Assembly (NCBI RefSeq): GCF_033473495.1
Contig: NC_088939.1
Coordinates: forward strand, 4,588,001-4,652,000
Source of the DNA: Cercospora beticola
Taxonomy: Eukaryota; Ascomycota; Dothideomycetes; Mycosphaerellales; Mycosphaerellaceae
DNA: 64,000 nt
Reading direction: 5' to 3'
Both the position numbers and the translations under genes were made by a program. Below the pieces are notes generated by a model. That model was not told the DNA's origin, did not search any database, and saw only the letters and a list, made by a program, of their open reading frames with translations. Of this stretch, positions 36,915 to 61,001 are shown piece after piece (the first letter of the stretch is position 1; every line of letters starts with the position of its first letter).

Positions 36915-38151
36915 TGCCTACGAAGTCCTATTATATACCTCTATACGGTTATAGGTAGAAATAAATAGCTTCGGCTATACTAGTAAAGTATAGAGCGGCT
37001 AGATATCTATAGAGATAGGAAGAAAGCGATAAAAAAAAGTCTAGAAATCTATAGAAGTATATACCGGGCGAACTCTAACGAATACTATAAACTAGAGCTA
37101 GCGCAGCTAGAACTAATATAAGACCTAGTACTAAGAGACTAGACTAGAATCTCTAGATAGTAAATTCTATTCTAGGCTTAGGAGCTAGAGTAGTAACCTA
37201 GTACTAAAATAAGCTAAAGAGGAGGAAGGAGTATACTATAATTAAAGCTTTAAAGTAAAGCAGAAAGAGCAGAGAGGAGTATAGGATAAAGTAGCTAAAA
37301 CTATAAAGGAAAACGTCCTAGTCTAGGTAGAAGGCAGGATAATAAGCTAAATAAGAGGCCTAGAAACCTCTTAGGAAGTACTCTAAAGAGAAAGGAGGAT
37401 ATATCTCTATATACTAGTATATACCTCTAGTACTACTAGGTTTAACTACTTATTCTAAGAGATTAGGAACTCTATCTATAGAGCCTATTTGCCTACTAGG
37501 TCCTATAGTAGAATTATATAATAACTAGTAGAACTATAGAAATAGAGATATTTATCTAAGGTCTAGCTCTCCTAGGTACCTTATAACTAACTCTAAAAGT
37601 AGAGTATCTAATAAAAGTAACTCTTATTCTATATTTAAGGCTACCTATAATAGAAGAGCTAGTTTAGAATACTACTACTTAATATAATTTCTATAAATAT
37701 AGGTTATATAACTTAGATACTAAGTAAGGTAGAAAGTTTAGAGTAGGAGTATAATATTAGAGAAAGCTCCTACTATAGACTAGTAAGAAAGAGTTAGATA
37801 TAAGATTAATATAAATACTAGTATAGAGACTAGGACTATATATATAGACTTAAGTCCCTAAGCTAGTAGATAAGAGAATTAAGCTTCTAAGTAATAATAA
37901 TATAAGAAATAACTAAGGAGAACTACTATAAAGGATCTAAACTATTAAGATAACGCAAATTGTCCTAAGAAGAACTAGAAACTATAGAAGCGGTAGGCTA
38001 TATAGAGCTTACTATAAAATATAAAAATATAAGGAGGTTTTTCTACCGGAGTACTAGTACGAGAGCTTTTCTATCTACGAAAAATATAGAGCGTACTACT
38101 TACTCTAGTTAAAAGAAGTAGACTAGCGTATAAGAATTTATCTATCTATCT
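36915..38151 (+). mobile_element. 1.24-kb non-autonomous retroelement, copy B
   Basis: Starts gcctacgaagtcc and ends in (tatc)n. It is flanked by a perfect 14-bp target duplication, aatatctagctata, at 36,901-36,914 and 38,152-38,165. It is similar over its whole length to the inverted copy at 59,767-61,001, which has the same two ends. No RT or endonuclease motif is seen. A long gag-like frame can be followed if TAG/TAA are read as former Gln codons, but I do not recognise it. Its 3' terminus resembles that of LINE 1. Confidence 0.8.
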
Positions 38152-41100
38152 AATATCTAGCTATACCCTAGTAGGCTAGGAGCTAATTAATAGCTCTATA
38201 CGAGCGCCTTATATATATCTTTAACTATCTTTTCTACTATAAGCTATTATAAGAATTATAAATCGTTTTCGGACTCGATCGGATTAATATATCTCTTAAT
38301 AGACTTATACGCCTCTATTAATAGATAGAGTAGCTCTTACTATAGCTCTATAATACTACTTAGAATAGTCTAGATATACTACTATTATTCGATAAAGTCT
38401 TCCTAGAGAATAATAGTCTAGAGGAAGAGCCTTAAGGTTAGATCGGTAGTAGAGCTATAGGTAACTAAGAAGAGGTCTATAACTAGACGAATCTTTCTAT
38501 AGAGAGTATAGTAGCTTTCGAGAAAGTCTATAAGCGTCTAATTAATAGCTATTATAGCTACTTCTTCTATATATTCTCGCTACTACTACTCTTCCTCTTA
38601 CTACTACTACTCTTTCTATTATCTATACTATACTTCCTCTTATTGCTACTATTCTTCCTTTTATTACTACTATTCTTCCTCTCGTTACTACTATTCTTCC
38701 TATTATCTACGCTCTATAACTTCTTACTTACGCTATACTTTCTCTCTTTAATACTATTCTTTCTCTTTTTAATACTCTATAATTTCCTAGTTTAGCTACG
38801 CTTCTATAAGCTCTGCCTATAGCCTAGCGATCTCGTCGGCTATTATTCGTATATTATTAGCTTAATAGTAAGCGATCTAAGTAAATAAATATACTAGCTA
38901 ACTTTCGGCCGTAGCTACCTAGACTTTACTAGTTAATTACTAGAGCCGAGTCTCTATAACCGAAGCTTAATATTTCTACTAACTAGTTAATACTAGTAGT
39001 AGTCTCGAATAATAGATATATTATTATATATTACTAAAATCGGGCTACGTATTATATCTAGTCTAAATCGTATACCTAGCTAGAGCTATAGCTTATAGCG
39101 TATCGGCTAGCGCCGAGTTCCTATTTAAAGTAATTACTATAACCTATATATAATAGAAGATAGGCTTAGTACTATAGTTACTATAGTAACGATCTACCTT
39201 ATAGTAAATCTATATTAGCGACTATATATACTTCTATAGCTACTTATATACCTCTAAATAAATATGTATATATAAGAGCGTTCTAAATAAAGAGTCTCGT
39301 AATTACGTAATAGTTTTATTTTAATTATAGTCTGCTTATACTACTAGACTTTATAGATTATTTACTTATATACTCTATATCTATATAAACGCTCGTTCTA
39401 TAGTATTACCTCTAGAAGCTATAGTCTAAAACTATTTAACTCCTTTTAGGAATTACTTTCTAAAATAAATATAGAGTTATTCCTTAGTAAGAGATATTCC
39501 TTCTAGTAGATTCCTATAGTAATATTATCTCGAATAATAGCTATATACGTTATTATATTATTAAGTAGAAGAGCTTAGATAATCTCTATAGTCTCTAGAG
39601 ATCTACTTATAGCTAGTTAGTTTATTTAGTAGCGCTTCTATAGATCGAGCAAAGCTATTATAGTCTATATTTAGATAGTAGGTTATATAAGGTACTAGAT
39701 AAGTATTATACGATACCTATATAGTTAGTCTACCTCTACGAGAAATATCTCGCGCGGCTCGTATAACGAATCTATAAAAGCTATCGATACTAAGTAAAGT
39801 ACTAGCGACTAGTAGTATATCTAGGCGTTACTATAGGTCCTATTCTATCGTTATAGCGATATTATACTCTATATTAGTAAAGATATCTTCTTTATAAAGC
39901 GTAATATATAGGTATATAATACTATAGCTATAGTAGCGTAGGCTACGAACTTTACGCTCGTCTTATTCTTTATAATAGTCGAGGTATAGTCTCTAAAGCT
40001 CTAATATAACTATTAGATAGTAATAAGATAGACGGATAGTATATACTATCTTCTTAAGCGAGCTATAGAGGTATATAACCTTCCTATTAGCTAGCTCTAC
40101 TTCTGCTTCGAGGCTATTAATATTCTAAGTATAGAGCTAAAGTAGCCGACTATTAAATCTCTCTAGAGACTCGTAGAAAGGTATTAGTTCGGCGCGTATA
40201 GCCTACGTAGCTAGGAAGTCGATAGCCTTCTTAAATATATCTATTAAGTATTATAGTATAGAAGTATCGAGAGTATACTATAAGTTATATATAATAAAAG
40301 TACTATAAGAGGAGCAAAAGTCCGAAATATCTACCGATATCGAGATTCCTATATCTATAATAACTAAGATATTATAATATTTAGAAAGTATAGCGATAGT
40401 ATCCTTAGTATACTATAGGTCTATACTATTATAGAGCTCGAGTCGCTTCTAAAAGCGTAATACGTAAGTCGTAGTAGCTTTCTATTTAGATATATTTAAG
40501 TACGAAATAGTAGAGTATATAGGAGAGCTAATTAGAAAAGAAAAAGAAAGAAAAGAAGGAAGAAAGTCGGGTAGGCTACGAATATAAAGGTCTAGAGCTC
40601 CTACTATCTTACTAGCTACGCGTAGTAGTAGCGTTATCTACTTATAGAGCTCTAAGCCGCGATATATCTCTACTATAGCTACTATTCTAGTACGAGTCGA
40701 TACTATAGTTAGATAGAGAATAGAGTATAGTATATAGTAGAAGGCCTCTAGTATATTCGATTAGCTAATATAAAAGTCTATAGAGCTATCGTAGGCTATT
40801 CTGCCCTCCGAGATTATATTATCTACGTAGAATATAGCTATTAAGGCCTAGAGTATATAACCGAAGTCGTAAGTCGAGATACTTATATTAGTTATTAGTC
40901 GTATACTATATCTAGCGTTATCTAAAACTTTATAGATAGATAGTTATAATAGAAGAGGATCTTCTATATTACTATATATCTTCTATTATTAGGAACGGCT
41001 ATAGTAAATATACTAGAGTTAAGGCCTATATAGCCGACTATATACTTTAACTAGCCTCCGAGTTACTAGGTATAAGAACTCCGCTCTATATAAAACTAAT

Positions 41101-42180
41101 TAGTAGTATATTAAAATATCCTACGTTCGAGTCGTATAAGAGAATTCTCTTCTATCTAGATACTTAACTAGAGAGGTCTTCGCAGACCTTAGAAGATATA
41201 GATAAACTCTAAGTAGATCTATTAAAAGCTATATATAGTAACTATTATAGTACGAAGTATCCGTCGTAGCGTCTATATAGCTAGATCCTAGCAGAGTTAC
41301 TACGCTACTATTAATATTAATAAACGTATACTCTATTATTTACTTACTCTTTATATAATATATACTCTAATATTTCTTTACTTTTATATACTTATAGCGC
41401 CTACTACTACTATTTAGATCTTATAGCTCTATAAACTACTAAGTAGTAGAGAGTTATAACTAGTACTACGCGCCGAGGAAGCTCGTCGTCGACTACTTTT
41501 AGCTCTTAAACTAGCTCTTACTATTACTATAGCTCTTCTCTACTCGAGTTAGAGAAAGTTATTAATTTATCCTAGAACGTTTAATCCTCTACTTCTTAGT
41601 ACTCGTTATTATCGGATACTTTAAGTATAGGCTAGTAATAAGCGCTAGGCTATTACTATTTATTTCTTATAGTAGCTAGGCCTATACGAGGCTAGGAGAA
41701 ATATAGGATTCCTTATTACTTTAAATTATTTTCTTCTTCTATTTCCCTTTTATTTCTTATATCCTTATTACTCGTTATTCTCGTTTTAATAGGTTAAGGT
41801 ACTACTACTATCCTATATAGTATCGGTCGCTATATACTTAGCTTCTATATTAGAATACTAAGAGTATAGGCCGACTAATAATATACTAAACGAGTTAGTA
41901 TATCTTTATATCTATAAAATAGAACGAAAGCTATATTACTAGAAATATAAAGTATCGATATCTAGAAGGACTAAAAACGAGCGAGAAGAGGATAGTAGAA
42001 CTTCTAGAAGATAGAGAGTATATTACTATACGTCTAAAATATATAGTATTATATAGTACTATTAACTATCGGAGCCTATATCGAGGTACGTATACTCTAA
42101 ATATAATAAAATCTAGAGTAGTAGGAGAAAAGAAGTTAGACGTAGTAGAAGAGAGTAGAGATAGTATATAATAAATAATA
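38152..42180. other. Unidentified RIP-degenerate sequence, CpG-rich
   Basis: Continues the segment interrupted at 36,914. Degenerate coding can be traced on the minus strand, for example around 39,240-39,960, but no domain is recognised. A CTA/CTT-rich low-complexity patch lies at 38,560-38,770. Confidence 0.35.
38560..38770. repeat. Low-complexity (ctactactattcttcct)n patch
   Basis: Irregular repetition of gctactactattcttcctctt-like units of about 24 bp over 200 bp, purine-rich on the minus strand. It may be the remains of a repetitive charged segment encoded on the minus strand. Confidence 0.55.
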
Positions 42181-42511
42181 GTAGTAGCTAGTAATAATAT
42201 ACTATAGAGGCAAATACTAGTATAGATAAAGCAAGTAGAAGAGCGAGCAAAATAAGCGGAAGAGCGAGTAAAATAAGTAGAAGAACGAGCTAAGTAGATA
42301 GGAGAGTAAATTAAGAAAGTAGAAAAGTAAGTAGAGTAGATAGGAAAACGAGTAGTATAGGTAGAAAAGAAATTAAAATAGCTAGAGGAAATAGTTATAA
42401 AGGTACTAATAATCGAACAAATTATAACTATAATATAAGAGTAAGTAGTAGTAAGTATTTAGTAGTAAGTAGTAGTAAGTATTTAGAAATAACTAGCTAA
42501 TATAGCTATAT
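42180..42511 (+). mobile_element. LINE 3 ORF1 or 5' region with coiled-coil repeat (left of Gypsy)
   Basis: The plus strand reads a heptad-like repeat, EVEERAK-x-AEERVK-x-VEERAK, with TAG at former Gln codons (about 42,225-42,400). A duplicated agtaagtagtagtaagtatttag follows at 42,440-42,485. It ends at the Gypsy target site, so it should be continuous with 47,856 onward. Assignment to LINE 3 is inferred from that continuity. Confidence 0.5.
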
Positions 42512-42516
42512 CTACT

Positions 42517-42711
42517 TATAAGAGCTAGAGGTATATAGCTCGAGAGGTATAGCTTGCTAGGCGTTAAGATATAACGGCTAGTACTACTTATACTTAGCGT
42601 AGGATAAAAGTATATAGAACGTATATAAACGAAAGAGGCAAGAATTATTCTTAATATCTCTAGATAGGAAGTCTAGAGGCGCTTAATATATTACTATATT
42701 CTACTCTTATA
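42517..42711 (+). repeat. Gypsy 5' LTR (195 bp)
   Basis: Begins tataagagctag and ends actcttata (TG...CA before RIP). It aligns without gaps to the 3' LTR. A TATA-like tatataaacg lies near 42,622. Confidence 0.9.
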
Positions 42712-45700
42712 ATTATAATTCTTCTACCTTATCGAGAGTAGCAATCTATTAAGGCCTATTATACTTACGCAAAACGTATCTACCTAGCGGACTAATTACG
42801 ATAACGACGTACCGAACGATAGATAGCTATTAGGCTATATCGAAGAGATATTAGAATCCGGAATAGTATAAGCTAAAAAGAAATAGGACGAGGATATAAA
42901 TAATACCGACGACGCTAGTAACGCGTATATAATACGTAGGCGCCTCTAAGCTAAAAATAATATATTACGCGAATAGCTAGAGATCCGTATCCTTAAGGCT
43001 AAGAACGAACGCTTACTAAGAGAAGTATAGATAATTAAATTACTAGTACGGCTAAGCGCGATAGTACTAGGCCTTAGATAGCCGATATCTTAGTAAGGCA
43101 GCGCGTCTATAAATTATACGAGTAGCGTACGTTCCGAAAGCGACGAGTATAGCTTATACGAGTCTATTAAGCTACGTACGCCTAAGCTTTTTAAGAGTAA
43201 GACTATAAAGAAGGTATACGAATTTATCTATACTCTCGAAGTAAACTTTATAGCTATACTAAAGAGGTTCCCGACGGATTACTAGAAGGTAATTACGGGT
43301 ATTATATACTTTATAGGCGAAGTGTAAGAGATATAGTATAATAAATACCTAGGCGTTCTATCTATAGGATATACCTAGTCTCGGTTCTATTAATTCCTAT
43401 ACGATATCGTTAGAGATTAAGCGAACTATATACTTCTCGTAACTATAGAATACGAGAATATACGCTAGAGTAAGAGCTAGAGCGTACGATAGTTCGTAAT
43501 AGACCTTAGTAACCTAGAGTCTTAGTTAGGTAACTATACTAAGATATAGCTAGTATACTAGTTCCTCGTAAAACTAAAGCTATTACTACGTAAGGATATT
43601 ATTAAGAACTATACTATCCCTAATAAGCGTACTAACTTTATTACTCTAGTAAAGCGCCTCGAGTAAGCTAAGAAAGCTATATCTTATAAGCCGTATTATA
43701 GTAATACCGAGAACAAGTAGGCTAAGTATAAGTATATCGATAGCGACGCTTCTTATAAAGGAGCCTCCGGTTCGACTAGTAGCTAATACGATACCTATAG
43801 TAGTAAGCCGAAGGATAAACGTAGAGGCAAAAGCAAAGGTAAGAGCTAGTAACCTATATACTTCGTATATAACGAGGTTAGCTATATTAGTTCTAACTAC
43901 TCGAACTCTAAGAAAGATAGTAATAAGCCGGCTATTCGTAGAATAACTATAGCAAAGGAGTAGAGAGCGAAAAAAGCTAAGGCGCCGGAGATAACGCGCG
44001 AGTTACTAGCGCTAAACTAGATAGCGATAACTCTCTACTAGTTTAGAGCGTACTAGCGACGCGTATAGAAGAAGAAGTCGAAACGTAGCTAGGTAGTAAG
44101 CCGGCCGCTTTCCTTCTCGACGATACTACGGATATTAATATAATATTAAGGGCCTTTATACTATAGTATAACCTACTAATAAGGCCGAATGCGGCCCTAC
44201 TACTAGTTACTACCTTTATAGGTAAATTAGAGCACTATTATAGTACGCACTATATATATATATAGATCGTAGACTCTAGTAGTAAGGAGCGATCTATAGG
44301 TAGTATCTTCTATATATATAATATACTAACTCCTAACGTAATCTTAGGCCGTCTATAGCGACGTACTTAGCGCGTACTAGCTAGTAGCGCTATAGATAAA
44401 TAGCTATATAGTAACGATCGTTTTAGTAAGTTCGAAGTCCGAGAAGTCTATAAGTTCTTTAAGGATCTTTAGAAGGCACTAGTAGTGTTTATAGTAAGCC
44501 TAAGTAAAATAGGCGATAAGGTTAAGCCTATCTCTAAGGAGTTCTATTATTTTAATAATATTCTTAATCTAATAGAGGAAATAAGAAGCAAGCTAGTTAA
44601 TAGTATAGAGTATACGATTAACCTACGGCCTAGAACTATACTACTATTCCGTCTACTATATTACTAGTCGGAGCGAGAATTAGACGAGCTTAAGAAGTAC
44701 CTAAAGATAGGACTCGAGTATAATTAGATCGAGCGTTCTAATAGCGAGGCAGGTACGCCTATTCTATTTATACTAAAGAAGAATAGCAAGCTACGGTTAT
44801 ATATTAACTACTATAGGCTAAACGAGATTACTATTAAGAACCGGTATCTACTATCTCTAATTAGTAAGACGCTAGATAGGCTTATAGGAGCTATATAGTT
44901 TATATCCTTAGACTTAGCTAATATATACTACTATATTCGGATTAAGCTAAGTAACTACTAGAAGACTACGTTTCGTACGTACTATAGCTATTTCTAGTAT
45001 AAGGTAATACCCTTCGGCTTAACGAATATACTAGCGACGTTCTAAGTATATATTAACTATACGCTAGTAGAGCTAGTCGATATAAGCTATATAGTATACC
45101 TAGACGATATCCTAATCTATAGTAGGATACGCGAGGAACACGTACGAGACGTATACGCTATACTTAAGAGGCTCTATAAGTTTAGACTCTACGTATAGCG
45201 TTCTAAGTATAAGTTCTTCTAGAAAAAGGTCGACTTCCTTAGATTCGTAGTAACTACTAGTAGCGTCGCGATAGACCTAAGTAGAGTAGCCGCAATCGCC
45301 TCGTAGCTAACTCTAACTATACTAATAGAAGTTTAATCCTTCCTTAGATTCGCGAACTTCTACTATCGATTTATCTTCGGATATTCGAGAGTTATAGTAC
45401 CTTTAATAGCGCTATTAAAGGGTATAAAGGATAGAAAGAAGCTAGAGCTAATTAAGTAGAAAGCAGCTAAGAAGCAGGTATTCTATAAGCTAAAAAATCG
45501 ATTTTAGACTATACTACTACTAAGGTACTTTAACTCTATACTATACCTACGAGTTAAAACCGACGCTTCCGACTTCGTAGTAGCTAGTATCCTAAGCTAA
45601 CTATTCGAAGCGGAATAGTATCTAATTACCTTCTTCTTATAGAAGATAATTAACGCTAAATATAACTATAAGGTTTATAATAAGGAACTACTTATAGTAG

Positions 45701-47655
45701 TTAAAGTATTTAAGGCGTAGCGACTATACCTCGAAGGCGCTACGTATAAGGTTAAAGTACTTATTAATTACGCTAACCTTAAGGGATTTATAGGTATTAA
45801 GTAGTTAATAGATAGATAAGTAAGGTAGGCGATATTCCTCGCTCTCTTTAATTTTACTATTAGCTATCGAGCTAGTAAGCTTAACCTAGCCGATACGCTA
45901 TCTAGACGTAGCGACTATATATAAGAGGCGAAGGAGATAAGTAACCTCCTACTATTACTATAGTAGAAACTCTAGATATAGAGTACTATACCTATAAGCG
46001 GCTTAGTTATTGCCCGTATAAAAGCTACTTACTAGGCTTAGTTAGATACCCTAAAGGTAGTTATAGTAGTAGTTAAGAGCAGAGAGGTAGCGCTGCCCGA
46101 TAGTAGGTATATTATAGTAGCGGTTAACCGTTCGGTTCGTCCGTTTAGCTTTACTCTACTCTTACGAGTCGCTAGCGCTATTACTACGTAAGAGTAGCCG
46201 TACGCTAACGTCTTAGATATAATTATTAGGTATACTACTATATTAGTATAGCTCGATCCGAAAGCAAAAGTACTATACGAGTAGGCTGAACGCGAAGGCG
46301 TAGCGAGCGAGAAATATACTATTAAGGATAGCTATATATACTAGGAAGAGGCTCTATATCTACCGAACGACCTAGTATTATAGACGTAGGTAATCTATAT
46401 ATACTACGACGATATCCTAGCGGGCTATTTTAGTAAGGATAAGATAGTAGAGTTAGTTAAGCAGAAGTACTAGTAGCTAGAGGTTAGTAACGACGTAAGG
46501 TAGTACGTCGAGTAGTATAGTAGCTATTAGAAGGCAAAAGCGAGGCGCTATCGCCTCTATAGCGAGATAGCTACGCTCCTACTACCTAACTATTCTTAGA
46601 AGGATTTATCTATAGACTTTATTATAGATCTTCTATCTAGTAAGTAGAACGGCTATATCTTCGACGCGATCCTTATAATCGTAGATCGTTACTCGAAGAT
46701 AGTAACTTTCGTCCGAACGATAAAGTACTATACTAGCGTAGAGCTTATAGATATCCTAATTAACGAAATAATACGACTACGTAGCGTACTAGCTAGTATC
46801 GTAAGCGATAGAGGCTTAGTCTTTACTAGCTAGTTCTAGTTAGACTTCTACTACGAGACGTATATAAAACGTAGGCTAAGTACTATATTCTACCTATAGA
46901 CTAATAGTTAAACCGAGCGCGCAAACTAGACGCTTAAGTAGTACCTATATATCTATTATAGTAAGCGATAGGACGACTAGGCGTCTATCCTATCGTTAGC
47001 GGAATTCGCGTATAATAATAGCGCGAATACTACGCTTAAGATATCGCTATTTCGAGTAGTATATAGGTTTAATCTAGACCTTTCTATAGAAACGTATAAG
47101 AGGAACGTAGACGAAGCTCGGGACGCGCTTCTTCGGAGAGAGGTACTAGTAGCGAAGGATACTATAGAGAGGTTAAAGCGGAACTACGAAGAGCTAACTA
47201 AGCGCTAGTAGTCGTCGTCCTCTGCCTTCGGTAGGTCGTCTACTATACGAGAGAGATAGTTAGCGGCTAGGATAGTAGGAGCGGAGGTAGCTCTCCTAGG
47301 AGGTATATTACTTATAAGTCGTATATAAGGGAAGTACTAGATAGTTAAGTATATAGTACGAGTTAGATACGAAGAGCTTACTAAATATAGATAGTTAATA
47401 GAGAAAATACGCGAAGAGTATACGACGAATTTATAGTATACTAGCGCCTTATAGCGCGAGCGCCGATAGTACGTACTATTAATAAGCCCGTTACTATAGA
47501 GAGTTACTATATAGCAACTAGCTACGAGCTAAGACTCGACTTAATATTTACGTACGTAAGAAGTAGTACGAATACACTAGATACTATACTAAGATAATAG
47601 AAATATATAGTCTCCTCTATAAGCTAAGATAGCTCTATTAGAGAGAGGAGATAGT

Positions 47656-47855: not shown

Positions 47856-50800
47856 AATAGAAGTCGCTTATATATAGAAGTAGCTTATATACCTCTAGAT
47901 AGTTAACTTAGTAATATCTATAGTCTTATAATAAGTATAACTCTATTAGCTTTTATAAACTCTCTCTACTATACGATCGATCTCTCGAGAGCTAATAAAG
48001 CCGAGAAAGCGAAGATCTACTCTAGTATAGTTAGAAAGTATATAGAGAAAGAGATATAAGGAGTCGAAGAATAAGAATAGTAGCGCTATATAGTAGTTAC
48101 TAAGGATCTATATAATACCGACTAGATCTATATAGTATATAGGAATAAGAGCGAGCTAATATAGGTTAAAGAGGCGATATTAAAGACTATAGTAGCGATA
48201 CTAGGAAGCCGCGTACTATACGACTAGCTCTACTCGATTAAGGTCGATAATACTAACTATATAGCTATAATTACTAAGACGAGAGACCTTCGACTAGGAG
48301 TAATTAAGATACTAGAAAAAGAGAACGAGACTAAAATCGCTAAAATTATATAGATTAGCCGAAAAGATAGTATAAAAGTATATAGGTCGATAATCGTCTA
48401 TCTAACTTATAGTAACGATATAGTACGCCTATTATAAGAATAGTACTTCTATATAGTAGGAGAATTAGTATATACTTAGGTTTACGAACTATACTAACGA
48501 CTAATATAGTACTATAGATACTAGGAGATAGACTATATCGTATATATATATAACAAACTATAGAGGTATACTAAGTACGCGTAAGAAGGTTACTACTATA
48601 CCGAATACGACGCCGAGAGTTTAGTTCTAAAGTATATCTCTTATAGTAGACTCTACGAATTATATAGTAAGAACTATCGAATACTATATCCTCCTTCTAT
48701 CGCTAATATCTAGCCTCTTAAAGGTCCTTTTACTAAATATTAGTAAGTAGCGAGTAGTATAATATAGCGTAATAAATAATATAGACCTCGAGGACTTCGG
48801 AGTTATTATATTATTAGAACTTTACTTATTTATAAAAGAGAGTAAGGTATTAACTATACTACTAGGCTATCTATACTAGACTAAAATAATACCTATAGAA
48901 ATACGCGAAGATAGATAGATAATTAGAAGTATATTCTAGATCTAGAAGGGAATAGAGAGTAAGCTAGTCCTAGTACTCTCTCCTAATATTACTATAGCGT
49001 TACTATATCTACCCGATTAGTTAGTATTTATCGTATCGGTCTATATAGTACTAGCTAACCCGTAAGTACTCGTAGAGACGATATAGCTTCTATAGTAAAG
49101 TATAGATACTATAAGGAGATAAGTAATAAAAGAAAGAATAGATATACTTCTTACTAGCGACTTTAACTAATATAACTAGCTATAGAGTAGAGACGATATC
49201 TTACCTACTCGATAAAGAGAGACAGACGGACTCGTAGACTTTATAAACGACTATACGCTATATAGTCTTCTACCGAGAGGTACTAAGATATAGTAGAATA
49301 GTAAGTATAAGAGTACTATCGATCTAGTACTAGCCTCCGAGGAACTAGCTACTATACTTATTTAGTATAGGATTTATAGAACTAAGTATAGATCGGACTA
49401 CTATACGATCGAGACTACTATTAATATTAATACGCTAGAGTATATAGTTTAGCTATACCTACTACTTAAGAATATACTCTAGAAGGAGATTTATACGAGG
49501 ATTACTAGTATACTCTAGCTATTAGCCGTAAACGTATATAGGTATATACTAGTAGATATATAGATATAGGCCGACTAACTTATAAGTATAGTACTTATAG
49601 TAGTTTATATACTTACTCCTATCGCGAAACTATTACTATATACTAAAAGGTAGTAGATATACGACCTTACTAAGCTTTATTAGATCTATATCTATTAGAG
49701 GAATAGAGTAAGAAGCTATTATAGAGTAGGAAGCTATAGCGAATAACTCGAGAAATAGATATAGATCGCTTCTAAGGAATACTATAATACTATCTATTAG
49801 TAGTAGAGGAGGTATAGAGAAGAATTCTTAGACGATACTAATAATATCTAGTAGGTAGCGAAGTATATAAAGGCCGATACTAGCCTAGGCTTATCCTAGA
49901 TCCTATTTCTTATAAGAAGAGATAGGTCGATTATAAGTAGTAAAAGAGAGTAGGCGACTAAGTTACTATTAATATTCTTTCTACCTCTTCTACTTATAAT
50001 CGAGAACGAAGAATAGTAAAAGTAGAGGAGGCTAGTCTATATATCTCCGCTTACTATAAATAAAGTTAAATAGAGTATATTCGTAGTATAGTCGTAGAAA
50101 GTAGTAGAAGAGAATAGGCTACTAGTAGTAGTATAGAAACGAGTATAGCTAGCTATAAAGAAGAGAGTTCTAATACTCTTTCGAACGTTACTATAAGAGG
50201 GAATACTACTAGTCTAATAGAAGATAGCTAAAATTATTCTACTAAAGAAACCTAATAAGAGCGACTATATAGCTACGAAGGTATAGCGACCTATCTCGTT
50301 ACTCGCTACGCTTAGTAAAGCGCTTAAAGTAGTAGTAGCTAAAAGAATATTATATATAGTCGAAACTATAGGCCTTCTACTAATAAACTACTTCGGAGCT
50401 TAGAAGAGACGATTAGTAGTATAGGCGATCCTTCTATTATAGGAATATATCTATAAGATATAGCGTAATAGGAAAGTACTTAGTCTAATTAGCTTCGACG
50501 TAAAAGATATATATAATAGAATATATAAGGAAAGACTACTATAGCGACTCTAAGTAAAAGGTATCTCTATAATACTAGTTAAATAGATCGATTCCTTCTA
50601 CTCGAACTAGTCGGCTATAATTATAGTTAATAGCTATATATCGGAGCGATAAGCGCTATAGTAAGTAGAATTACTATAGAGGTCGCTACTATTACTAGTC
50701 CTATTCCTCTTCTTTAATATAGACTTTATCTAGTATAAGATCGATAGTAATAGTAGTACTATAGTATTTATCGACGACTATATAGCGTAGGTTATAGGCC

Positions 50801-52560
50801 CCTTTATAGAGGCAAACTAAGGTAGGATCTAGGCGGTTATCGACTAAGCGATAGAGTAGGAATAAAGAAGTAGAGCTACCTTTAAAGGCGATAAGATAGT
50901 ATTTATCTACTTTATACGAATACTATACTAAAGTAGTACCCGACTAGTTCTAGTTAAGAGATAAGAGATAGAGCTAGTAAATAGTATAAAGATCCTAGAA
51001 GTAGTTATAGACTTAGAACTTCGATTCTAATAGTATATTATACGAGCGGCTACTATAGGTCTTACTACTATAATAGTACTAAAACGACTACGAGAGCTAT
51101 TACTATCTACTACCTATAGGCTATTCGAGATAATAGTAGCGCTAGTAGTCGACTATATATCGCTAGTATAGATATATAAGTATAAAGAGCGACTTATAGC
51201 TATAGTAAATCGAGTATAAAGAATCGGAGTATAGGTAGTTATAGGCTACTTCTATATAGTAGTAAAAGAAGTAGCCGAAGTAGAAGTAAGTATATATATA
51301 GTCTAGTAACGATATATAGCTAAAGCTACGAGTATATAGATCGATATTCTCTTACTACCTATAACTAATCTACTATCGAAACTTAGAGTTATATCGACCC
51401 GAAGGTTCTGCTCTCTACTATAATAGATATTAACTACTTATAAGATATCGATAAGAGATATAGAAAGTATCGCGCTATATATAGTAGTACTATAGTACTA
51501 GCGACTAGTAGTAGATATAAAGGAAATAATAGAGGAAGTAGTAAATACTACTAAATAGAGCGTAGATATCTATATTATAATAAGCTCCTTAGCGAGAAAT
51601 AATATTATCGGAGTAGGAGTCGTAATATAAGATACCGAGTAGAGAGAGCCTTTATCTACTATCGTCTCGACTATAGTATTAGTAAGGAAGGAGTATAACC
51701 TATATATAGCAGCCTTAATAGCGTTAGTAGAAAGCCTTATATAAATATCTCTATCTATAGTCTCGTAGAATATATATCTCTTCTTAGATAACCGAGTAGT
51801 ACTATAGGCTATATATAGTCCTAGATACTAGTTAGAATAGGAGACTATATAGTAGATCTATAAGAGTATAGGAGCCTTATAGAGCTATAATACTATCCGG
51901 TTAGTATAGTATTCTACTCTCGAGTTTAAGCTTAGCTAGAAAGCAAAAGAGGTAGCAAAAGCTATAATAGAGCTAGGTCGAATACTATAGTCGACCCGGC
52001 TAGTAGCTAGATCGACTACTATTAGCCTCTTAAAAGTAGAAATAAGAAAACGATAGTAACTAATCGAAGATATAGGAAGATATATATAACGAATCGATAC
52101 TATAATACCTAGGCTATATATACGAATACTATATAATTGTCTTAGAAGTAAATAAGTAAGCGTATTAGTATAGCTCTAGACTAGAATATTATAACTAAAT
52201 AGCTATCTCTACTAGATAGGAGCTATAGAATTAGACTAGTATATATATATATAAGTAAGTAAAACTATTAAGTATTTCTTATTCTAGTACTATCTATAGG
52301 ATAATCTCCGACTATAGATACTATAATATATAGATACTATAAGAGGTAATATCTCCTTCTTTCTTAGAGGAAAGATAGTATTAGATAACGAGAAGTAGAA
52401 ACCTATAATAGAAGTAGTCTTAGCGACTATCTAGTTTATAATAGCTATAGGCTACCTCGAGAGCTTACTATATTAACCTTCCTCTAGCTAGAGAATAGTT
52501 AACTAAGATATATAAAGTATATAATACTAGTAACTCTATACCTACTACTACTAACTATAC
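47856..52560 (+). mobile_element. LINE 3, Tad1-like, plus strand
   Basis: ORF1 ends in zinc knuckles at about 48,500-48,690, the Cys/His now Tyr. The endonuclease follows, with TSDFNQYNQL near 49,155 and STIDLVLASEELAT near 49,315. RT starts LLKKPNKSDYIATKV (about 50,235) and continues through RPISLLATLSKAL, FDVKDIYN (about 50,497) and FIDDY (about 50,770). RNase H begins near 51,580 (RNNIIGVGVV). The C-terminal block ISFFLxGKIV near 52,355 is the usual end of fungal Tad1-type LINE polyproteins. The left end is hidden by the Gypsy insertion; the right end is approximate. Confidence 0.85.
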
Positions 52561-52679
52561 GATAGACTATCTCGAGGCGGCGTATCTAATATATAACTAT
52601 ACTACTAACTTTACTACTCTACCTCTAATACGCTAGGTCGCCGAGGTAATATATAAAGTTATATAGAAATATTAGCGCT

Positions 52680-55560
52680 AAACTATACCTATAACTCCTA
52701 TAGCGTCGGGATTATCTACGCGCTAGATATCGAGAAGGCTATAGTAGAAGTAACGCTAGATAAAGAATATAGTAGGCTAGCGAAGATAGCCGAGGATAAT
52801 AATATATACTTATTTAGTAGAATTAGAGCGTATAATATAGTAGTTATCTACCTTCCTACTAGTATTATAAGGAAGGCTTTAGTAGCTATTATAGCTAAGG
52901 ATATAATATATAGCTTCCTAATTAAGATTAGCTTTATAGTTAGTATTTATAGTAGAGTATAGAATAAGAAGACAGATATTAGACTCGGTAACGTAATCGT
53001 TAGCTAGCTAGACGGGATATATAGTAGCGTTATATAGTAGAACTATAGTAAGATAGAAAGAAATAAAGTATTCTAGAGAAAAAGAATACTAAATAAGCTA
53101 CTACGCCTATTACTAAATATAGTATAGAGTCTAAAAGCGAAGTATCTACTTAAAGATAGCGTAGTTAGCACTTACCTCGAGCGGATATTCGCTAAGTATC
53201 TATAGCTAGTAGACGAGTTTAAATACTAAGGCCTAGAGTATAATAAGCTATTTAAAGCTAGCTATAGTTATATTAGTAAAGGTAGCTACGATAGCTACGA
53301 TAAAGCTAGAACTATTAGACAAAAACTAGGCTATAAGGATAATAAGCTAAGGATATACTATAGTAATATTACGTCGGGCGACTAGGTAATAAAGAATAGG
53401 CCGATAAGAGACTATATTATATAAGAAGAAGGGATTCTATACTTCGAGATAGAGGCGGTAGAGCTAATAGATACGTTTCTATATATAGTTATCTATAAAG
53501 TATATAACTACGTAGACTCGTATAAGAATAAGTAGTAGTAGCTCTATATAGCGGCTATAGTAGCGTACTATATAAAAGAGCTTCTTAGAGAGGTAGATCT
53601 ATAGAGAGTAGAGTAGCTAGAGCTAGCGAGTAAGTAGAATATATATAGTACTATAATTAATTTTATATAACGAACGCGAGAGGCTCGAGCTAACGAGAGA
53701 TAGGCTACTAGATCCTATTTAGTATAAAAGAAGTATCTATAATAGACTATTTCGTATAATATAAGATAGAGATAGGCTAGCTCGAAGCCTTCTTCTACTC
53801 CGGATCCGAGAGTACTCGTAAGAAGGTATTTATAGTATATAGACTTAGTAGTATAGGTAAGACCTAGCTATATATAGAGTATATATAGAGGTACCGAGCC
53901 GACTTTATAGCTATCTTCTAGCTAGATAGGTCGTCGAAGAATATACTTAAGTAGTCGCTTACGAGTATAGTAGCTAGACTATCTAGTAGTATAGTATCGC
54001 CGGCTATATAGATATTATAGAATAGCTATAATATAGAAGAGTTAATAGATATCCTATAGTAGTAGCTATCGCTAGAGGCTAATACTAGCTAGCTAGTAGT
54101 CCTAGATAACGTCGACTACGAGTAGTAAGTAGTATATTATAGTCTAGACTCTTAGGTATATAACTATAAGGACTTCTTACTTTCTATAAATTATAGAAGT
54201 ATCTTAATTACGATAAGGCTCGCTAGACTATAGCGCTCCGGGTAGAGCCTCTACCTATCCGAGGTTAACTATAATCTAAGTAGATAGATACTCGAGTTAT
54301 ATATAAGTAGGTATTTACTAGATATATAAATATAACTATACCTATACGATCTATAGCTTAAGAACCGAGTTACTAATATATAACTTATATATAGGCGCCG
54401 ATATACTCCTCGAGAAGCTTAGTAGCTTGCCTCTTATACTCGTCTAGGTAGGTACGTATCTCTAGTAGACGAATATATCGGTCGTAGCGTATATTAGATA
54501 CTACGATATAACGTAGGACGTTCTAATATACTACTAAGACTAGTATCTACTCTAAGAATACGTATAGAGAAGTATATTAATAACGTAGAAGCTATCCTAC
54601 TAGTAGGTATACTTAGTTAAGCTAGAGATAACGAAGCTCCTCGATTTTTAGGCGTTCTTATATTATAGAGACGTATCCTATAGGCTTATTAAAATATATA
54701 TATAAGCTTCTTAGTAGAGGAAGAGTAGTATAGAAAATATACTCGACTTTATAATAGACGAGCTTTTATTCTAAGATTCGCTTAGTATCCTTATATAGTA
54801 CTCTCTTATAAGCGCTAAGAAGAGTAGTACCGGATTCTCTATTTACTTAGTTATATACTAATAGAGTCTATATAATATTATAGATAAGGAAGTTAGAGTA
54901 GCGTTATATATAATTGCGATCTAGATTATAGCGAGAATAGTACTATCGAGTAGTACTAGCTAGCTCTTAAAAGTATAAGAATTACTACTATATATAAAGA
55001 TAGTAGCTACTCGACTTAATAAAGAGACTATAGTAACTAGTTTAGAGTATAAGCTTTATAGAATAGCTCTCTTTATATAGAAGTAGGAAAGCTTATAAGT
55101 AGTAGAGATACTATATATATAAATACTAAGAGAATATAAGAAGATATAGAGACCGAAGTATATTGCTACTCTCGATACTATTAATAATCTCGAGATCCTC
55201 TATAAAGTTTAAAATAGAATAAAGAAAGTAGAAGAGATATATTTCTAAGTACTAAGTAGAAAGAAGGAGATATAGAGACCGAAGTATATATCTACTCTTA
55301 ATACTATTAATAATCTCGGGAACCTCTACTCTAATTAAAGTAGAATAAAGAAAGTAGAAGAGATATATCTCCGAGCGCTAAGTAAGTTCGAGGAGATATA
55401 GAGACTAAAGTATATATCTACTCTCGATACTATTAATAATCTCGAGGCTTTCTATAAGAATTAAAATAGAATAAAGGAAGTAGAAGAAATATATCTCTAG
55501 ATACTAAGTAAGTATAAGAAGATCGAAGGAAATTACGAATCCCGAATTCGTAGCTTATAA
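52680..55560 (+). pseudogene. RIP-mutated NLR: nucleoside phosphorylase / NB-ARC / TPR
   Basis: A degenerate host-type gene, not a transposon protein. It opens SVGIIYALDIEKAIVE at about 52,702, the RIP form of the VGIICALPxEKAAVE start of PNP_UDP domains in fungal NLRs. GNVIVSQLDGIY (about 52,990) and EGILYFEIEA (53,430) follow. The P-loop now reads YRLSSIGKT (about 53,837-53,863), with FTAIFW-like FIAIF, and the Walker B strand is LVVLDNVDYE (about 54,088). The C-terminus holds kinesin-light-chain-type TPRs in exact 126-bp (42-codon) units from 55,142. This architecture is an established fungal STAND/NLR type linked to non-self recognition and programmed cell death. The frame is kept over nearly 3 kb with substitutions only, so the copy was killed by RIP and not by slow decay. 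Confidence 0.87.
55142..55519 (+). repeat. Three TPR-encoding tandem units, 126 bp each
   Basis: Units start with agatatagag at 55,142, 55,268 and 55,394. Each encodes a 42-residue TPR with the TLDTINNLE helix A and RIKEVEEIYLxxLS helix B pattern. The equal spacing shows no indels. Confidence 0.88.
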
Positions 55561-56100
55561 GAGTACTTTTTAGCTCTTAAGCTATAGTATAATATAGCTA
55601 AAAGCTCTACTATATAATCTATAAATACTAGGAAGGAGAATACGAGTATAAGCTAGACTAGAAAAAGAGACTATCTACTTCGACTTCTAGAAAGAAGATA
55701 ATAGAGTAAGTAGGCTATAATCTATATAGGCTTATTAATATATTTAGCTAGCGATATAAATACGCTAGCTCTATAGCTTTATTAGTATATATATACCTAA
55801 TATCTTGTCTTCCTTAATCTATAGTAGTTCCGGATTTCCTTTAGACTATATTAGATATTAAAAGAAATATATTCGTTCTATAGTTTCCTATAGTAAGAAC
55901 TAAGTTAAGCTATATCTATTATTCTAAATATCTTCTTCGTATACTCTACTACTATATTTGTACTACTAGAGCTTAATATTACTCTAGTACTATAGTATAT
56001 CTCTTAATATATTCCTCGAATAGCGATATCGCTCTAGCTTCTAAATCTAGTATATTTAATTCTTACTTACTTCTTATAAGCTATTTTTCGCTACTCCTAG
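55561..56100. other. Spacer between NLR relic and transposase relic
   Basis: RIP-mutated; it probably includes the 3' flank of the NLR and the terminal region of the transposon to the right. No terminal inverted repeat could be fixed by eye. Confidence 0.4.
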
Positions 56101-57790
56101 CCGCGCTAAGTCTAGTTTCGGGAGTATATAAACTTAATCTAGCTATCTTTCGTTTACTACTACGCTCTTTCTTACCTATAATTAGAACTATAGCTTCTAC
56201 TATACTTTTTATAATTTTCCTAGCCTCTTTCTCTATTTTCTTAGTCTCTTTCTTAGTCTCTTTCCTAGCGCGCTCTACTCTTACTTTCTCGAGGTCTTCG
56301 TAGCTTATTACTCTCGCTATCTCTATAACGTTTAACTTAGTTAAGTAGCGGACCTTAACTTCGTTATTAACTTCTATTAGAAAATAGTTTTACTAGTAGA
56401 AGAGAGTATACTTAGTAAAGGATAGTTATATAGTATTAATAAGCTTCTAAAGGTACCTCTAGAGACGCTACTTCTTTGTCTTATCTAGTAGGTAGGCGTC
56501 CTACTCGATTAGGTATTATAGCGAAGTAATAGCTTCTATAGATATAGAAGTAATAGGAGTCTATAGTATATTACTTTTATTACTAGTACCTACTTATACC
56601 TAAGTAACTTCCTAAACTATAACTTTTATAAGAGGCTTAGGAGTATCTCTAATAATACTAGTAGTATTAAAGAGAAATAGGCCGGCCTTTAACTACCTAG
56701 CTCGAATATTTCTTAATATAAGTATACGATCCTATATAGAGCTATATAAGTAAGTAAAATATTCTTTTCTAACTATACCTATACTACTACGTTCTAACTA
56801 TTCGACTTAATTATAATAGGCTACCTTTAGTAGGCTAAAGACCGAAACGTTATAAGGCTAGAGCTTATAGGATATATAAAATAGAATATAATATAGAATA
56901 ATATTATTTTCGAAATAGATCTAAGACTTCGAGGATCTTATATATTCTAAAACTATTATAGATTAGTACTTATAGCTTCTACCTCGCGTAGTCTTTAGTT
57001 TAAGTATTAAAGATAAGCTTTAGCTATTATAAGCTAAGATATAAGTCGGTATACCTACTATCGGAAAACGTATAGTACTATTCTAGAGTAGAATATATAC
57101 TCTAATTAGATCTATAAGTTAAAGCGGGCTAGATTATTATCGGATTTAGATATCTACTATTAGTACTAATATACTCGATTACTATAATCGTCGTACGCTT
57201 AATATATACGCCTCTACTTCCTTATTAATTATCTCTACTAATAAGAACTTTAACTAAGCTAAGCTAGGAGAGTATAATACTAGTCTTATCTATATTATAA
57301 ATATTCTCTTATAAAATATTCGGATCCTATAAAACTAGGCCGATTACTTCGAACTAGTATATTACCTTATCTTAAATATTATACTAGTTCTAGTCTAGCA
57401 CTTTTGCTATACTAGCTTTTAGCTCCGAATAGCGTCTATAGAAAAACTAAAGCTAGTTCTTCTTAGATAGCTTACTTAGTCTTCTCGTAGAGAGTTATTA
57501 GTAAGTAAAGCTAAAGGCTATCGAGCTTACGTACTTAATCTATACTAGGCGACTAAGTATATCTTAATATATAAGAAACTTTATAATAGCTTTTTCTTTC
57601 TATAGATCGAGATATTATTAGCTTCGAGCTTTCTCTATAAGTAATCGCTATCTATATACGTAATACTAAAGCGTAGTACGAGGTATATTACTACGACTAG
57701 AACGAGCTCGAAAAGAGCTTTCTAAGCTAGAGTAGATATCTTCGGCTAAGGCCTAACTAGCTCTATCTATAGTACGTTAATATACTAAAA
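56100..57790 (-). mobile_element. Fot1/pogo-type (Tc1-mariner) transposase relic
   Basis: On the minus strand the C-terminal DDE region reads KLQPYNVSVFSLLKVAYYN (about 56,875-56,816), the RIP form of the HxLQPLDVGVFxPLKxAY block of pogo/Fot1 transposases. Upstream lies TTIIVIEYIST (about 57,195), matching the strand after the first catalytic Asp. A basic, Lys/Glu-rich tail (about 56,300-56,170, KETKKETKKIEKEARK) is also typical. Neither terminal inverted repeats nor TA duplications were located. Confidence 0.75.
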
Positions 57791-58113
57791 TAAAGACTAG
57801 AAGACTAGAAGAGTAGGAAACTAGAAAGTAGGCTCTATAGATACTCGAGAAGTTATCTAAGAATAGATAGTAGATAGAAGTAGATAGACTATAGATATTA
57901 AGGAAGTATTTAGAAGTAAGTAGCTATACGCTATAGTATATAGTATAATATATCTAAATATAGCGTAGCGTAAGTATTTATTAATATACGTTATAGTCTT
58001 ATATAGCGCTATTATATATCCTAAAATCTTATACGAACTAAAGCTTCTTCTACCGACTAGAGATACTCTTAGTATATATATCTATATATTAGAATAATAT
58101 ATTAAGTAGAGCA

Positions 58114-58343
58114 TATTAGAAAGTATAGTCTAGTTAGATATTCTAAGAGATACTTTAGGAATTAGAGTTAGGTAATATAGGTTATATAATACTAGGTTAT
58201 ATAACCTAGCTAATACCTATCTTAGAAGTAAGATATAACCTATAACTAACTAATATAATTAACTCGGTTAGTTCCTACTTATTATCTCTACTTCTACTAT
58301 TTTATACCTATCCGACGAGTGCCTATAAGAATATAATTTAATA
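58114..58343 (+). repeat. Solo Copia LTR (230 bp) with intact target duplication
   Basis: Full-length match to the LTR at 14,530 and 25,307. It is flanked by gagca at 58,109-58,113 and 58,344-58,348. No internal region is present, so it arose by recombination between the two LTRs of a complete insertion. Confidence 0.92.
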
Positions 58344-58348
58344 GAGCA

Positions 58349-59752
58349 CTATATTTCTAGACTACTTAACTATAGTATCTACCTTCCGAAGCTAGGAAAT
58401 AGTTGCGTTACGATTGAGTAGTAGAGTTATATCGCTTAAGAGTTAATTACTTATATTAGTATACTAATTAATAGTACGACTAGCTTATCTAATATTACGT
58501 AATACTTTAGTAGAATAATAGAGGGACGAGTATATATTAGAAGTATCTTACTTATATCTATATAAATATATAGGAAAATATATATAGATATAACTTTTAT
58601 AATATAGCTCGTATTATAGAGTAGCTCGCTAAACTAGAAAGAGAAAGAGAGGAGAGATATTAGTAGGTCGGAGGCCGGCGAGGAGATATACCTATATATA
58701 GTACTAGCTACGAACCTTCGTCTACTCTAGAAAGTAGTTCGGAGAGCTAAGATATCTCTATAGTAAGTTCTATAGTAGTAGATAGTAGACGTATATAGTA
58801 TATAACTAATAAAAGTAGAGCTCGCCTTACTAGCTACTATTAGAATAATAAGAGACGCCGAGGATATTCTAGTATCTATAAAAGTAAAAGTAAAGTTAAG
58901 GAGTTAAAAGGGAACTTAGAGAACTCGTCGCTACTTAAAGTTTCTTATAATAAGAGGATAAATTTAAAGAAAGAAGAGATAGTTAGTATAGGCGCGTTAG
59001 GTCCTATACTCTTATAAGAGCTTAATATATATAGGGCGTAGTAAACTCTATATATAATAGATAATAAGAACTACTAGTCTATACTACTAGCCGATAGGTA
59101 TTGCTCTAGCCTAGAGCTAGTAGAAAGAAGTAACTATTATCTTATAGAAGTACTCTATAAGAAGATAGTAGTAGAAGAAGAGAAGACTATTTCGTACTCT
59201 TATCGAATAGCTCTCTAGGTATTAATCTGCTCTACCTAGAGAAAGTAAAAGTTATATAATACTCCGACGCGACTAAACGAGATAAAAGTACTACTACCTA
59301 TAAGTAGGAAAATTAATAGCGTAAGATAGCCCGAGGTTTAGTTAGGCCTTAGGACTTTAGTTTAGAAGAATACTATTATACGTCTATATAGTAGAACGAG
59401 AATAAGAAACTAAAGGATAAGCGATAAGAACTCTATCTCGAGCTAAGAGGTAGAATATAAGTAAGAAACGAAAGGTATACGACTAGGTATTATATACCGA
59501 GCGCTAGAAAAAACAAAAAGATAGTAAGAATATAGTAAAGCTCTCGGACTTAGGTTTTCTTTATAAGATAAGGTTTTTGCCTAACTAGATAGGCAATTAT
59601 AATAGTACTCTTATAGAGTAGCTATCTCGATTATACTCGTATAAAAACAAATCTAGAGAATATTTTAAGTTAAGATAGTAAACGAGAGTATAAATATAAA
59701 GTTAATACTTAGAGATAGCTTATATAGATATTAGATCTATATATAGCTAGAT
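58349..59752. other. Unidentified RIP-degenerate sequence, CpG-rich
   Basis: Degenerate; no domain recognised. It interrupts or follows the elements on either side. Nothing else can be supported. Confidence 0.3.
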
Positions 59753-59766
59753 TAAATAATATAATA

Positions 59767-61001
59767 GATAGATAGATAATTCTTATATACTAGTCTACCT
59801 CTTTTAAATAGAGTAAGTAGTACGCTCTATATATTTCGTAGGTAGAAAAGCTCTTATACTAGTACTCCGGTAGAAAAACCTCCTTATATCCTTATATTTT
59901 ATAGTAAGCTCTATATAGCCTACTACTTCTATAGTCTCTAGTTCTCCTTAGGATAATTTATATTATCTTAATAGTTTAGTTCCTTTATAATATAGTTCTC
60001 CTTAGTTATTTCTTATATTATTAGTACTTAGGAGCCTAATCCTCTTACCTACTAGCTTAGAGACTTAAGCCTATATATATAGTCTTAGTCCCTACGCTAG
60101 TATCTATTTTAATCTTATATCTAACTCTTTCTTACTAGTCTATAGTAGGAGCTCTCTCTAATATTAAGATCCTACTCTAAACTTTCTATTTTACTTAGTA
60201 TCTAAGTTATATAACCTATATTTATAGAAATTATATTAAGTAGTAGTATTCTAAACTAGCCCTTCTATTATAGGTAGCCTTAAGTATAGAATAAGAGTTA
60301 CTTTTATTAGATACTCTGCCTTTAGAGTTAGTTATAAGATATCTAGGAGAGCTAGACCTTAGATAAATATCTCTATTCCTATAGTTCTACTAGTTATTAC
60401 CTAATTCTACTATAGGACCTATAAATAGGCTCTATAGACGGGGTACCTAATCCCTTAGAATAAGTAGTTAACCTAGTAGTACTAGAGGTATATACTAGTA
60501 TATAGAGGTATATTTTTCTTTTTCTCTAGAGTACTTCCTAAGAGATTTCTAGGCCTTTTATTTAGCTTATTATTCTGCCTTCTACCTAGACTAGGACGTT
60601 TTCCTTATAGTTTTAGCTACTTTATCTTATACTCCTCTCTGCTCTTTCTGCTTTACTTTAAAGCTTTAATTATAGTATACTCCTTCCTTCTCTTTAGCTT
60701 ATTTTAGTACTAGGTTACTACTCTAGCTCCTAAGCCTAGAATAGAATTTACTATCTAGAGATTCTAGTCTAGTCTCTTAGTACTAGGTCTTATATTAGTT
60801 CTAGCCGCGCTAGCTCTAGTTTATAGTATTCGTTAGAGTTCGCCTAGTATATACTTCTATAGATTTCTAGACTTTCTTTTTTTTTTATTACTTTCTTCCT
60901 ATCTATATAGGTATCTAGCTACCCTATACTTTACTAGTATAGCCGAAGCTATCTGTTTCTACCTACGACTACGTAGAAGTATATAATAGGACTTCGTAGG
61001 C
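59767..61001 (-). mobile_element. 1.24-kb non-autonomous retroelement, copy C
   Basis: Minus-strand copy of the element at 36,915. On its own strand it starts gcctacgaag (from 61,001 downward) and ends in (tatc)n at 59,767. The 14-bp target duplication taaataatataata lies at 59,753-59,766 and 61,002-61,015. Both copies keep the same 5' end, so this is not random 5' truncation. Confidence 0.82.

Follow-up and report, generated by a model that had tools for sequence, protein, structure and literature searches.

A dispersed, apparently non-coding retroelement of Cercospora beticola whose 5′ end coincides with the predicted cleavage site of a hepatitis delta virus-like ribozyme

The genome of the sugar-beet leaf-spot fungus Cercospora beticola (36.07 Mb, ten contigs) contains a family of interspersed repeats, two copies of which lie in the stretch of 64,000 nucleotides analyzed here (C5:4588001-4652000, hereafter the window). 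In this family, we found two fixed ends, target-site duplications (TSDs) and a 3′ end in common with LINE 1, a long interspersed nuclear element (LINE) of the same window. The 5′ end coincides with the predicted cleavage site of a self-cleaving ribozyme of the hepatitis delta virus (HDV) type, a coincidence that the earlier note on this DNA had missed. We consider it likely that the repeat is a non-autonomous, apparently non-coding retrotransposon of the type without long terminal repeats (LTRs), with a ribozyme at its 5′ end, a drifting body, and a LINE 1-type 3′ end, and that it moves by the mechanism proposed below. The ribozyme fold at the 5′ junction is held with more confidence than that mechanism as a whole.

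Copy number, length classes, and ends

Copy 1 (36916-38150, +) and copy 2 (59767-61001, -) both belong to a long, 1.24-kb subfamily, as judged by alignment and genome search, and are ~92% identical from end to end. Both start with GCCTACGAAG and end in (TATC)n. The earlier note had reported this start and tail, which the alignment bears out, and had placed the two copies correctly to within one base. Copy 1 is flanked by TAATATCTAGCTATA, a TSD of 15 bp found in identical form at 36900-36914 (+) and 38151-38165 (+), with one additional T between the TSD and the element. Copy 2 is flanked by TATTATATTATTTA, a TSD of 14 bp located by sequence and flank comparison at 61002-61015 (-) on the 5′ side and at 59753-59766 (-) on the 3′ side; its exact limits are uncertain because it lies within an AT-rich (TATAT)n array. 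Thus each copy has its own duplication as previously claimed, and the length of 14 bp given for both agrees with copy 2, copy 1 having 15 bp. The window beyond 14 kb is AT-rich (25-38% GC per 2-kb bin) in a manner resembling repeat-induced point mutation (RIP), and the RIP index (CA+TG)/(AC+GT) of the two copies is 0.06 and 0.04.

Copy 2 is inserted in a long run of (TATAT)n (window 61016-61190 and 59710-59766). The segment atttaatctagctatatatagatctaatatc, which adjoins this copy on its 3′ side, is repeated upstream near 61150 as judged by eye, and copy 2 may therefore lie inside a local duplication. The body of copy 1 contains an imperfect palindrome of ~53 bp (~37816-37868), where copies align to the opposite strand with 81-87% identity.

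The pair is part of a repeat family with two length classes, ~1.05 kb and 1.24 kb. When copy 1 was used as the genome query (40 of 201 candidates scored, 73 matches), 37 of the 40 best matches began within the first four query bases, 36 of the 37 covering at least 1170 bp. Individual genomic loci and copies are labeled by L-numbers, copy 1 being L001 and copy 2 L029. L069, the least mutated copy, has also undergone some RIP (RIP index 0.91); as a query (40 of 193 candidates scored, 46 matches), it recovered the shorter class, with 37 complete matches. A RIP-tolerant pattern for the 5′ end, with up to two mismatches allowed, matched the genome 107 times, compared with 0 for the reversed control, and a 3′ pattern matched 167 times, compared with 0 for its control. 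Since so many of the best matches share one start and both patterns far exceed their controls, the similarity of the two window copies is not a product of chance.

Among the 107 matches to the 5′ pattern, 100 were listed; the 5′ ends are present on all ten contigs, at varied target sites. An element 3′ end lies at the expected distance from 85 of these 100. This number comprises 72 that start complete matches (35 in the search with copy 1 and 37 in that with L069), eight more with the 3′ motif at 1015-1213 bp, and five more with the element 3′ end at the expected place, for which the body in between is mostly unread. Of the remainder, three are partial matches, two are broken by other repeats (L062 and L065), and one (L027) begins a copy that is divided by another copy nested in it. 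For the last nine, no element 3′ end lies where it would be expected, and one of the nine has a 48-bp match to LINE 1 on the opposite strand. Judged by eye, L062, L068, and L011 seem to be broken by another repeat with LTR-like ends (TGTAAG...CTTACA).

For comparison at the level of single bases, 43 loci were taken and 33 complete copies were retained; the other ten were left out, one end having no match to the search expression. None of the 33 exceeds 1293 bp. Transversions, which RIP does not make, are concentrated in the middle of the element. In the first 150 bp, the middle, and the last 300 bp, respectively, they number 0/145, 41/580, and 8/293 between L069 and L081, 0/145, 41/579, and 0/292 between L069 and L001, and 2/145, 39/574, and 0/292 between L070 and L003. 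The large gaps between copies also fall in the middle part. In these three between-subfamily pairs, both ends thus appear constrained while the middle drifts.

Target-site duplications and empty sites

TSDs were scored with one mismatch allowed and a minimum score of 9, and the flanks of different copies served as the control. By this measure, 29 of the 33 complete copies have TSDs, compared with 14 of 636 mismatched flank pairs. The length is exactly 14 bp, the mode, in 17 of the 29, and in 25 of the 29 no base separates the TSD from the element. Most of the TSDs begin with TA(T/A)T. Because L015 and L016 share one duplicated segment, the 33 copies represent 32 insertions.

For four insertions, empty counterparts were found in other copies of the repeats that host them: one locus for L004, nine LINE loci for L010, three LINE loci for L017, and 26 LTR-element loci for L033. 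The overlap at these empty sites is 10-14 bases, as a duplication would give. LINE 1 sequence lies upstream of two of the 33 copies, namely, L010 and L017; since both are flanked by TSDs and other LINE copies are empty at the corresponding sites, we regard them as insertions nested in LINE 1 copies and not as continuations of the element. Longer copies that run upstream into LINE reverse transcriptase (RT) sequence, the finding that the earlier note had named as fatal to its proposal, were not seen among the 33. What it had looked for in support is present in the genome, namely, many copies with the same two ends, duplications of 12-16 bp, and a 3′ end common to a full LINE. Its claim of a discrete element in place of random LINE truncation is borne out genome-wide by the fixed ends and the separate TSDs.

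A predicted HDV-like ribozyme at the 5′ end

The Rfam model RF02682 (HDV ribozyme of F. prausnitzii) gave full-model matches that start at element base 1 in L069 (30.7 bits, E = 0.011), L070 (28.4 bits, E = 0.037), and L061 (26.1 bits, E = 0.12). Matches in L065 and L062 (E = 0.039 and 0.46) start one base further in. A search of the whole genome with this model at E ≤ 10 returned 12 matches, of which ranks 2-10 are all element 5′ ends, seven at element base 1 and two one base in; ranks 11-12 lie elsewhere. With RF01787 (the mosquito model), element 5′ ends ranked first and third of three matches (E = 1.7 and 5.8). The two window copies have no Rfam match at E ≤ 1.

The ribozyme regions of copy 1 (36916-36996, +) and copy 2 (60921-61001, -) were assigned from pair counts and, respectively, from homology to the RF02682-matched regions of L069, L070, L061, and L065 and from alignment. 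The nested double pseudoknot of HDV ribozymes, with P1, P2, P3, P1.1, and P4, can be formed. In our model, P1 pairs bases 1-7 with 35-41 and has a G.U pair at the predicted cleavage site, P2 pairs 16-21 with 73-78 plus 13-14 with 79-80, P3 pairs 22-24 with 32-34 around a seven-base L3, and P1.1 pairs 26-27 with 42-43; P4 is capped by UUCG, and J4/2 reads GCAAA. Among the bases conserved in HDV ribozymes, we take position 69 in J4/2 to be the catalytic C. It is C in 14 of the 33 complete copies and T, a RIP-type change, in the other 19. Both window copies have T there, so they are predicted to be inactive.

Counted over 14 aligned copies, the 28 modeled pairs are paired in 94.6% of 391 cells, compared with 25-41% when the partners are slid by 1-3 columns; the 28 include P2 and P1.1, which are unpaired in the Rfam structure line. 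The covariation score was equaled in one of 500 shuffles. RIP converts TG opposite CA to TA opposite TA, and accordingly fully RIPed helices are still paired, with half-RIPed ones showing G.U pairs or mismatches. A home-made descriptor of the HDV fold was too crude to be used, as it matched three of 12 element ends and 14 places in the window, including the start of copy 2. No related DNA was found in viral contigs with two exact patterns.

Elsewhere in the genome, a second HDV-like ribozyme was found at L108:761-829 (C5:4780260-4780328, +). It is the rank 1 match to RF02682, with 42 bits (E = 3e-5, cut-off 44), lies in GC-rich DNA that resembles neither LINE 1 nor the element, and begins with C, as do the fungal variants of Li and Breaker (PMC5640933).

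The 3′ end in common with LINE 1

LINE 1 occupies window positions 16365-21400 (-; ~5.04 kb), with its 3′ end at 16365. It lies within an LTR element, copies of which are uninterrupted at that place and define its limits, and it contains endonuclease-like and RT-like regions broken by stops. When stops are translated as X, one frame matches Exo_endo_phos_2 (E = 0.0085) and, further downstream, RVT_1 (E = 2e-5), neither reaching its curated cut-off; the best match among solved proteins is an R2 retrotransposon protein (PDB 9nl2, E = 2.2e-8). The first kilobase of LINE 1 has 40 genomic copies that match from query base 1-7, and the LINE 5′ ends that were fetched have a common start, unlike that of the element, in varied flanks.

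The last 70 bp of copies 1 and 2 are 95.7% and 92.8% identical, respectively, to LINE 1 at 16366-16434 (-), a segment defined by alignment to both copies and to further LINE copies. In copy 1, this shared end together with the (TATC)n tail lies at 38079-38150 (+). Overall, the element and LINE 1 have their last 70-90 bp and the tail in common, in agreement with the resemblance proposed in the earlier note. Ten little-mutated loci with the 3′ motif but no 5′ end paired to it were fetched and proved to be LINE 1 in seven cases and element sequence in three. Beyond the shared 3′ end, blastn found no match between the element and the fetched LINE loci. Likeness to the LINE upstream of the shared 91 bp was as high in only one of 500 shuffles, which is suggestive only.

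Because the 3′ end is in common, LINE 1 is the likely source of the RT and endonuclease that would mobilize the element, as the earlier note had proposed. The two also share a target: the element copy L033 and the window LINE 1 are inserted at the same place in different copies of the LTR element, with 5′ junctions 1-2 bases apart and 3′ junctions ~3 bases apart. LINE TSDs of 12-18 bp were recognized in five of eight cases, in which the distance from the TSD to a fixed anchor varies over 10-35 bases. In comparison with the element, which starts directly after the TSD in 25 of 29 copies, the LINE 5′ end therefore looks ragged and that of the element sharp.

The LTR-type repeat that hosts LINE 1 spans window ~14530-22914, and 26 fetched loci carry it with no insertion at that place. 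Window 14530-14760 is also found alone and may be the LTR of this host repeat. Among the fetched LINE 1 copies, L071 and L078 have an (AACT)n tail in place of (TATC)n, and these tails might tell LINE sublineages apart.

Coding capacity and promoter

The earlier note had suggested that the element may encode a gag-like protein. This was not borne out, as each of the six frames has at least 12 stops common to all seven copies of the short set and at least 12 common to all 25 copies of the long set; the indels between copies are 1, 2, 4, and 5 bases long. Nor was there any hit in Pfam at E ≤ 1 when L069 was translated in six frames with X for stops. A gag-like protein encoded by the element itself, as in HAL1 of mammals, would suit the length, and RIP can create TAA and TAG stops; the partly RIPed state of L069 leaves room for an ancient frame. 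Given the shared stops and the indels, we reject gag-like coding for the copies compared and consider such an element very unlikely.

The same lack of an open frame, together with the fixed 5′ end and the LINE-type 3′ tail, would also fit an unusually long short interspersed nuclear element (SINE) with an internal RNA polymerase III (Pol III) promoter, in which a ribozyme-like fold arose by chance. ARAGORN found no tRNA gene in four little-mutated copies. In three scanned copies, there was no match to the A-box or B-box consensus, and these copies contain internal T-runs of 4 and 5. Three copies searched with Rfam had no match of Pol III type (tRNA, 5S, or 7SL) at E ≤ 1. The ribozyme matches, moreover, lie at base 1. 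A Pol III SINE is thus not supported by the copies scanned and is very unlikely.

Proposed mechanism

The element would consist of three modules: a 5′ HDV-like self-cleaving ribozyme of ~80 nt with the cut predicted exactly before base 1, a drifting body of ~0.6-0.8 kb, and a 3′ module that ends, (UAUC)n tail included, like the LINE 1 family. RNA polymerase II would read into the element from outside, or from an unmapped promoter, and the ribozyme would cut the transcript to leave an RNA with a 5′-OH that starts at G1. LINE 1 proteins could then bind the common 3′ end, with the LINE 1 endonuclease nicking sites of the TA(T/A)T type, and target-primed reverse transcription would give a full-length copy with a duplication of ~14 bp. 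RIP would subsequently mutate the new copy, often at the catalytic C.

Several observations weigh against this interpretation. None of the element's Rfam matches attains the curated cut-off (the best scores being 30.7 against 44 bits for RF02682 and 20.7 against 37 for RF01787), which is a library threshold and not a property of the ribozyme class. At E ≤ 10, matches also occur in eight of 14 control genomes for RF02682 and in 11 of 14 for RF01787, none above the cut-off, and the single match to RF01788 (E = 2.2) is on the strand opposite to an element start. Because control genomes match too, a weak Rfam match alone means little, and the weight lies on its coincidence with base 1. The nine RF02682 matches are not independent, since the copies form one homologous family. 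The modeled structure was drawn from these same sequences and is hence favored over its slid versions. Position 42 of P1.1 is A in all 33 complete copies, with G found in two interrupted ones (L062 and L065). Of 500 shuffles, 114 have at least as many pairs with changes on both sides and 432 at least as many further pair types, and RIP, by altering both sides of a pair, can mimic compensatory change. Since RIP alone makes such changes, the case for the ribozyme rests on position and fold and not on covariation.

On the side of the partner, the 5′ end of LINE 1 differs from that of the element and has no Rfam match at E ≤ 1 in four loci. Three of the eight LINE copies lack a clear TSD, and the LINE TSDs stand without a control. 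The shared 3′ end folds no better than shuffles (z = 0.66 for the element and 1.20 for the LINE), and a structured 3′ recognition hairpin was accordingly rejected from the single-strand fold.

Origin of the element

On balance, we lean slightly toward the following account. A fungal lineage would carry dispersed, non-coding elements in which a ribozyme is combined with a stolen LINE tail; the ribozyme would take the place of a promoter-defined 5′ end and turn read-through transcripts into full-length substrates for a ribozyme-less LINE, and RIP would disarm the copies by hitting the catalytic C, which lies in a CA context, and would leave the helices largely intact.

Alternatively, the element may be an internal deletion derivative of an autonomous, ribozyme-bearing LINE, by the NARTc/RIME or R2 route, whose parent was lost, destroyed by RIP, or missed. 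This concerns origin; the element would work in the same way, and the mechanism proposed above is compatible with it. As far as the available parts of the sources go, this route is documented for such elements (PMC4035085; PMC3414825), and there is room for a parent among the nine of 100 listed 5′ ends that have no assigned 3′ end and the seven of 107 matches outside the listing. However, LINE 1 has the 3′ end in common with the element but not the 5′ end, none of the 33 complete copies is longer than 1293 bp, and no ribozyme match examined heads a LINE, with RF02682 ranks 11-12 and RF01787 rank 2 set aside. We therefore regard a deletion origin as possible but rather doubtful; internal deletion of LINE 1 itself was rejected, as only the 3′ end is in common. 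That the copies are randomly 5′-truncated pieces of LINE 1, as the common 3′ end alone could suggest, is almost certainly wrong, since it is contradicted by a common 5′ end, which in 85 of the 100 listed places is followed at the expected spacing by an element 3′ end, and by the absence of any blastn match beyond the 3′ end in the fetched LINE loci.

Comparison with known systems

The comparisons below draw on the parts of the cited papers that were available. The short internally deleted elements (SIDEs) of R2 in Drosophila join a 5′ ribozyme to the R2 3′ end, and in the R2/R1 hybrid SIDEs, which have 14-bp duplications, the ribozyme comes from one LINE and the 3′ end from another, R1 (PMC3414825). 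The element resembles a hybrid SIDE in having a 5′ ribozyme at the insertion junction and the 3′ end of a LINE from the same genome. Unlike SIDEs, which reside in 28S ribosomal DNA (rDNA) and are cut from the rRNA transcript, it is dispersed over varied targets; rDNA was not searched as such. In trypanosomatids, non-autonomous non-LTR elements (NARTc and SIDER), together with L1Tc, carry a 5′ HDV-like ribozyme of ~77 nt, and NARTc is a truncated L1Tc that retains the Pr77 5′ end (PMC4035085). Like NARTc, our element has a predicted 5′-terminal HDV-like ribozyme; unlike NARTc with L1Tc, it has only its 3′ end in common with LINE 1.

Retrozymes have ribozymes at both ends and a circular RNA, whereas L069, L070, L061, L065, and L062 have one ribozyme match each at E ≤ 1. 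SINEs with LINE tails likewise take their 3′ end from a partner LINE and have TSDs; the element differs from them in being longer, in its 5′ ribozyme, and in that no Pol III promoter was found. The anatomy of the element, with a ribozyme front, a foreign LINE tail, and nothing visibly coding in between, is that of a hybrid SIDE. The kind is thus known, and what is new is its occurrence in a fungus, dispersed in the genome, with a long body and with a partner in which no ribozyme was detected.

Fungal HDV ribozymes have been described before. Li and Breaker (2017) reported 230 variant HDV ribozymes from 26 fungal species, two of which were shown to cleave, and 11 conventional ones were known earlier (PMC5640933). 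In these variants, the cleavage site has a C-G pair, P4 contains a loop E, and P2 and P3 are separated by an additional base (PMC5640933); our model has a G.U pair, a UUCG-capped P4, and no additional base. In the available text, the string "transpos" does not occur in the main text of that paper, "fung" does not occur in two reviews of HDV-like agents and ribozyme-bearing mobile RNAs (PMC8256844; PMC7761336), and "ribozyme" does not occur in two papers on Zymoseptoria elements (PMC4522978; PMC9970103). A study of Pseudocercospora included C. beticola for comparison (PMC13041039, seen in part). We found no ribozyme-headed fungal retroelement in the literature searched, which consisted of titles and abstract openings, with subscription papers mostly outside; absence is not thereby proven.

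If the proposed interpretation is true, ribozyme-processed non-autonomous retroelements exist in a fungus, a ribozyme has been joined to the tail of a LINE that shows none of its own, and there is a simple account of why copies nearly always start at the same base. With natural copies that are little mutated, a short test of cleavage in vitro becomes feasible, and the family would offer a case in which the effect of RIP on a catalytic RNA can be traced.

Other features

A nuclear RNase P RNA was found at L108:3928-4338 (-; RF00009, 37.2 bits, above the cut-off of 28). In the window, the protein encoded at 8198-9517 is 100% identical, over 96% of the query, to C. beticola apoptosis-inducing factor 1.

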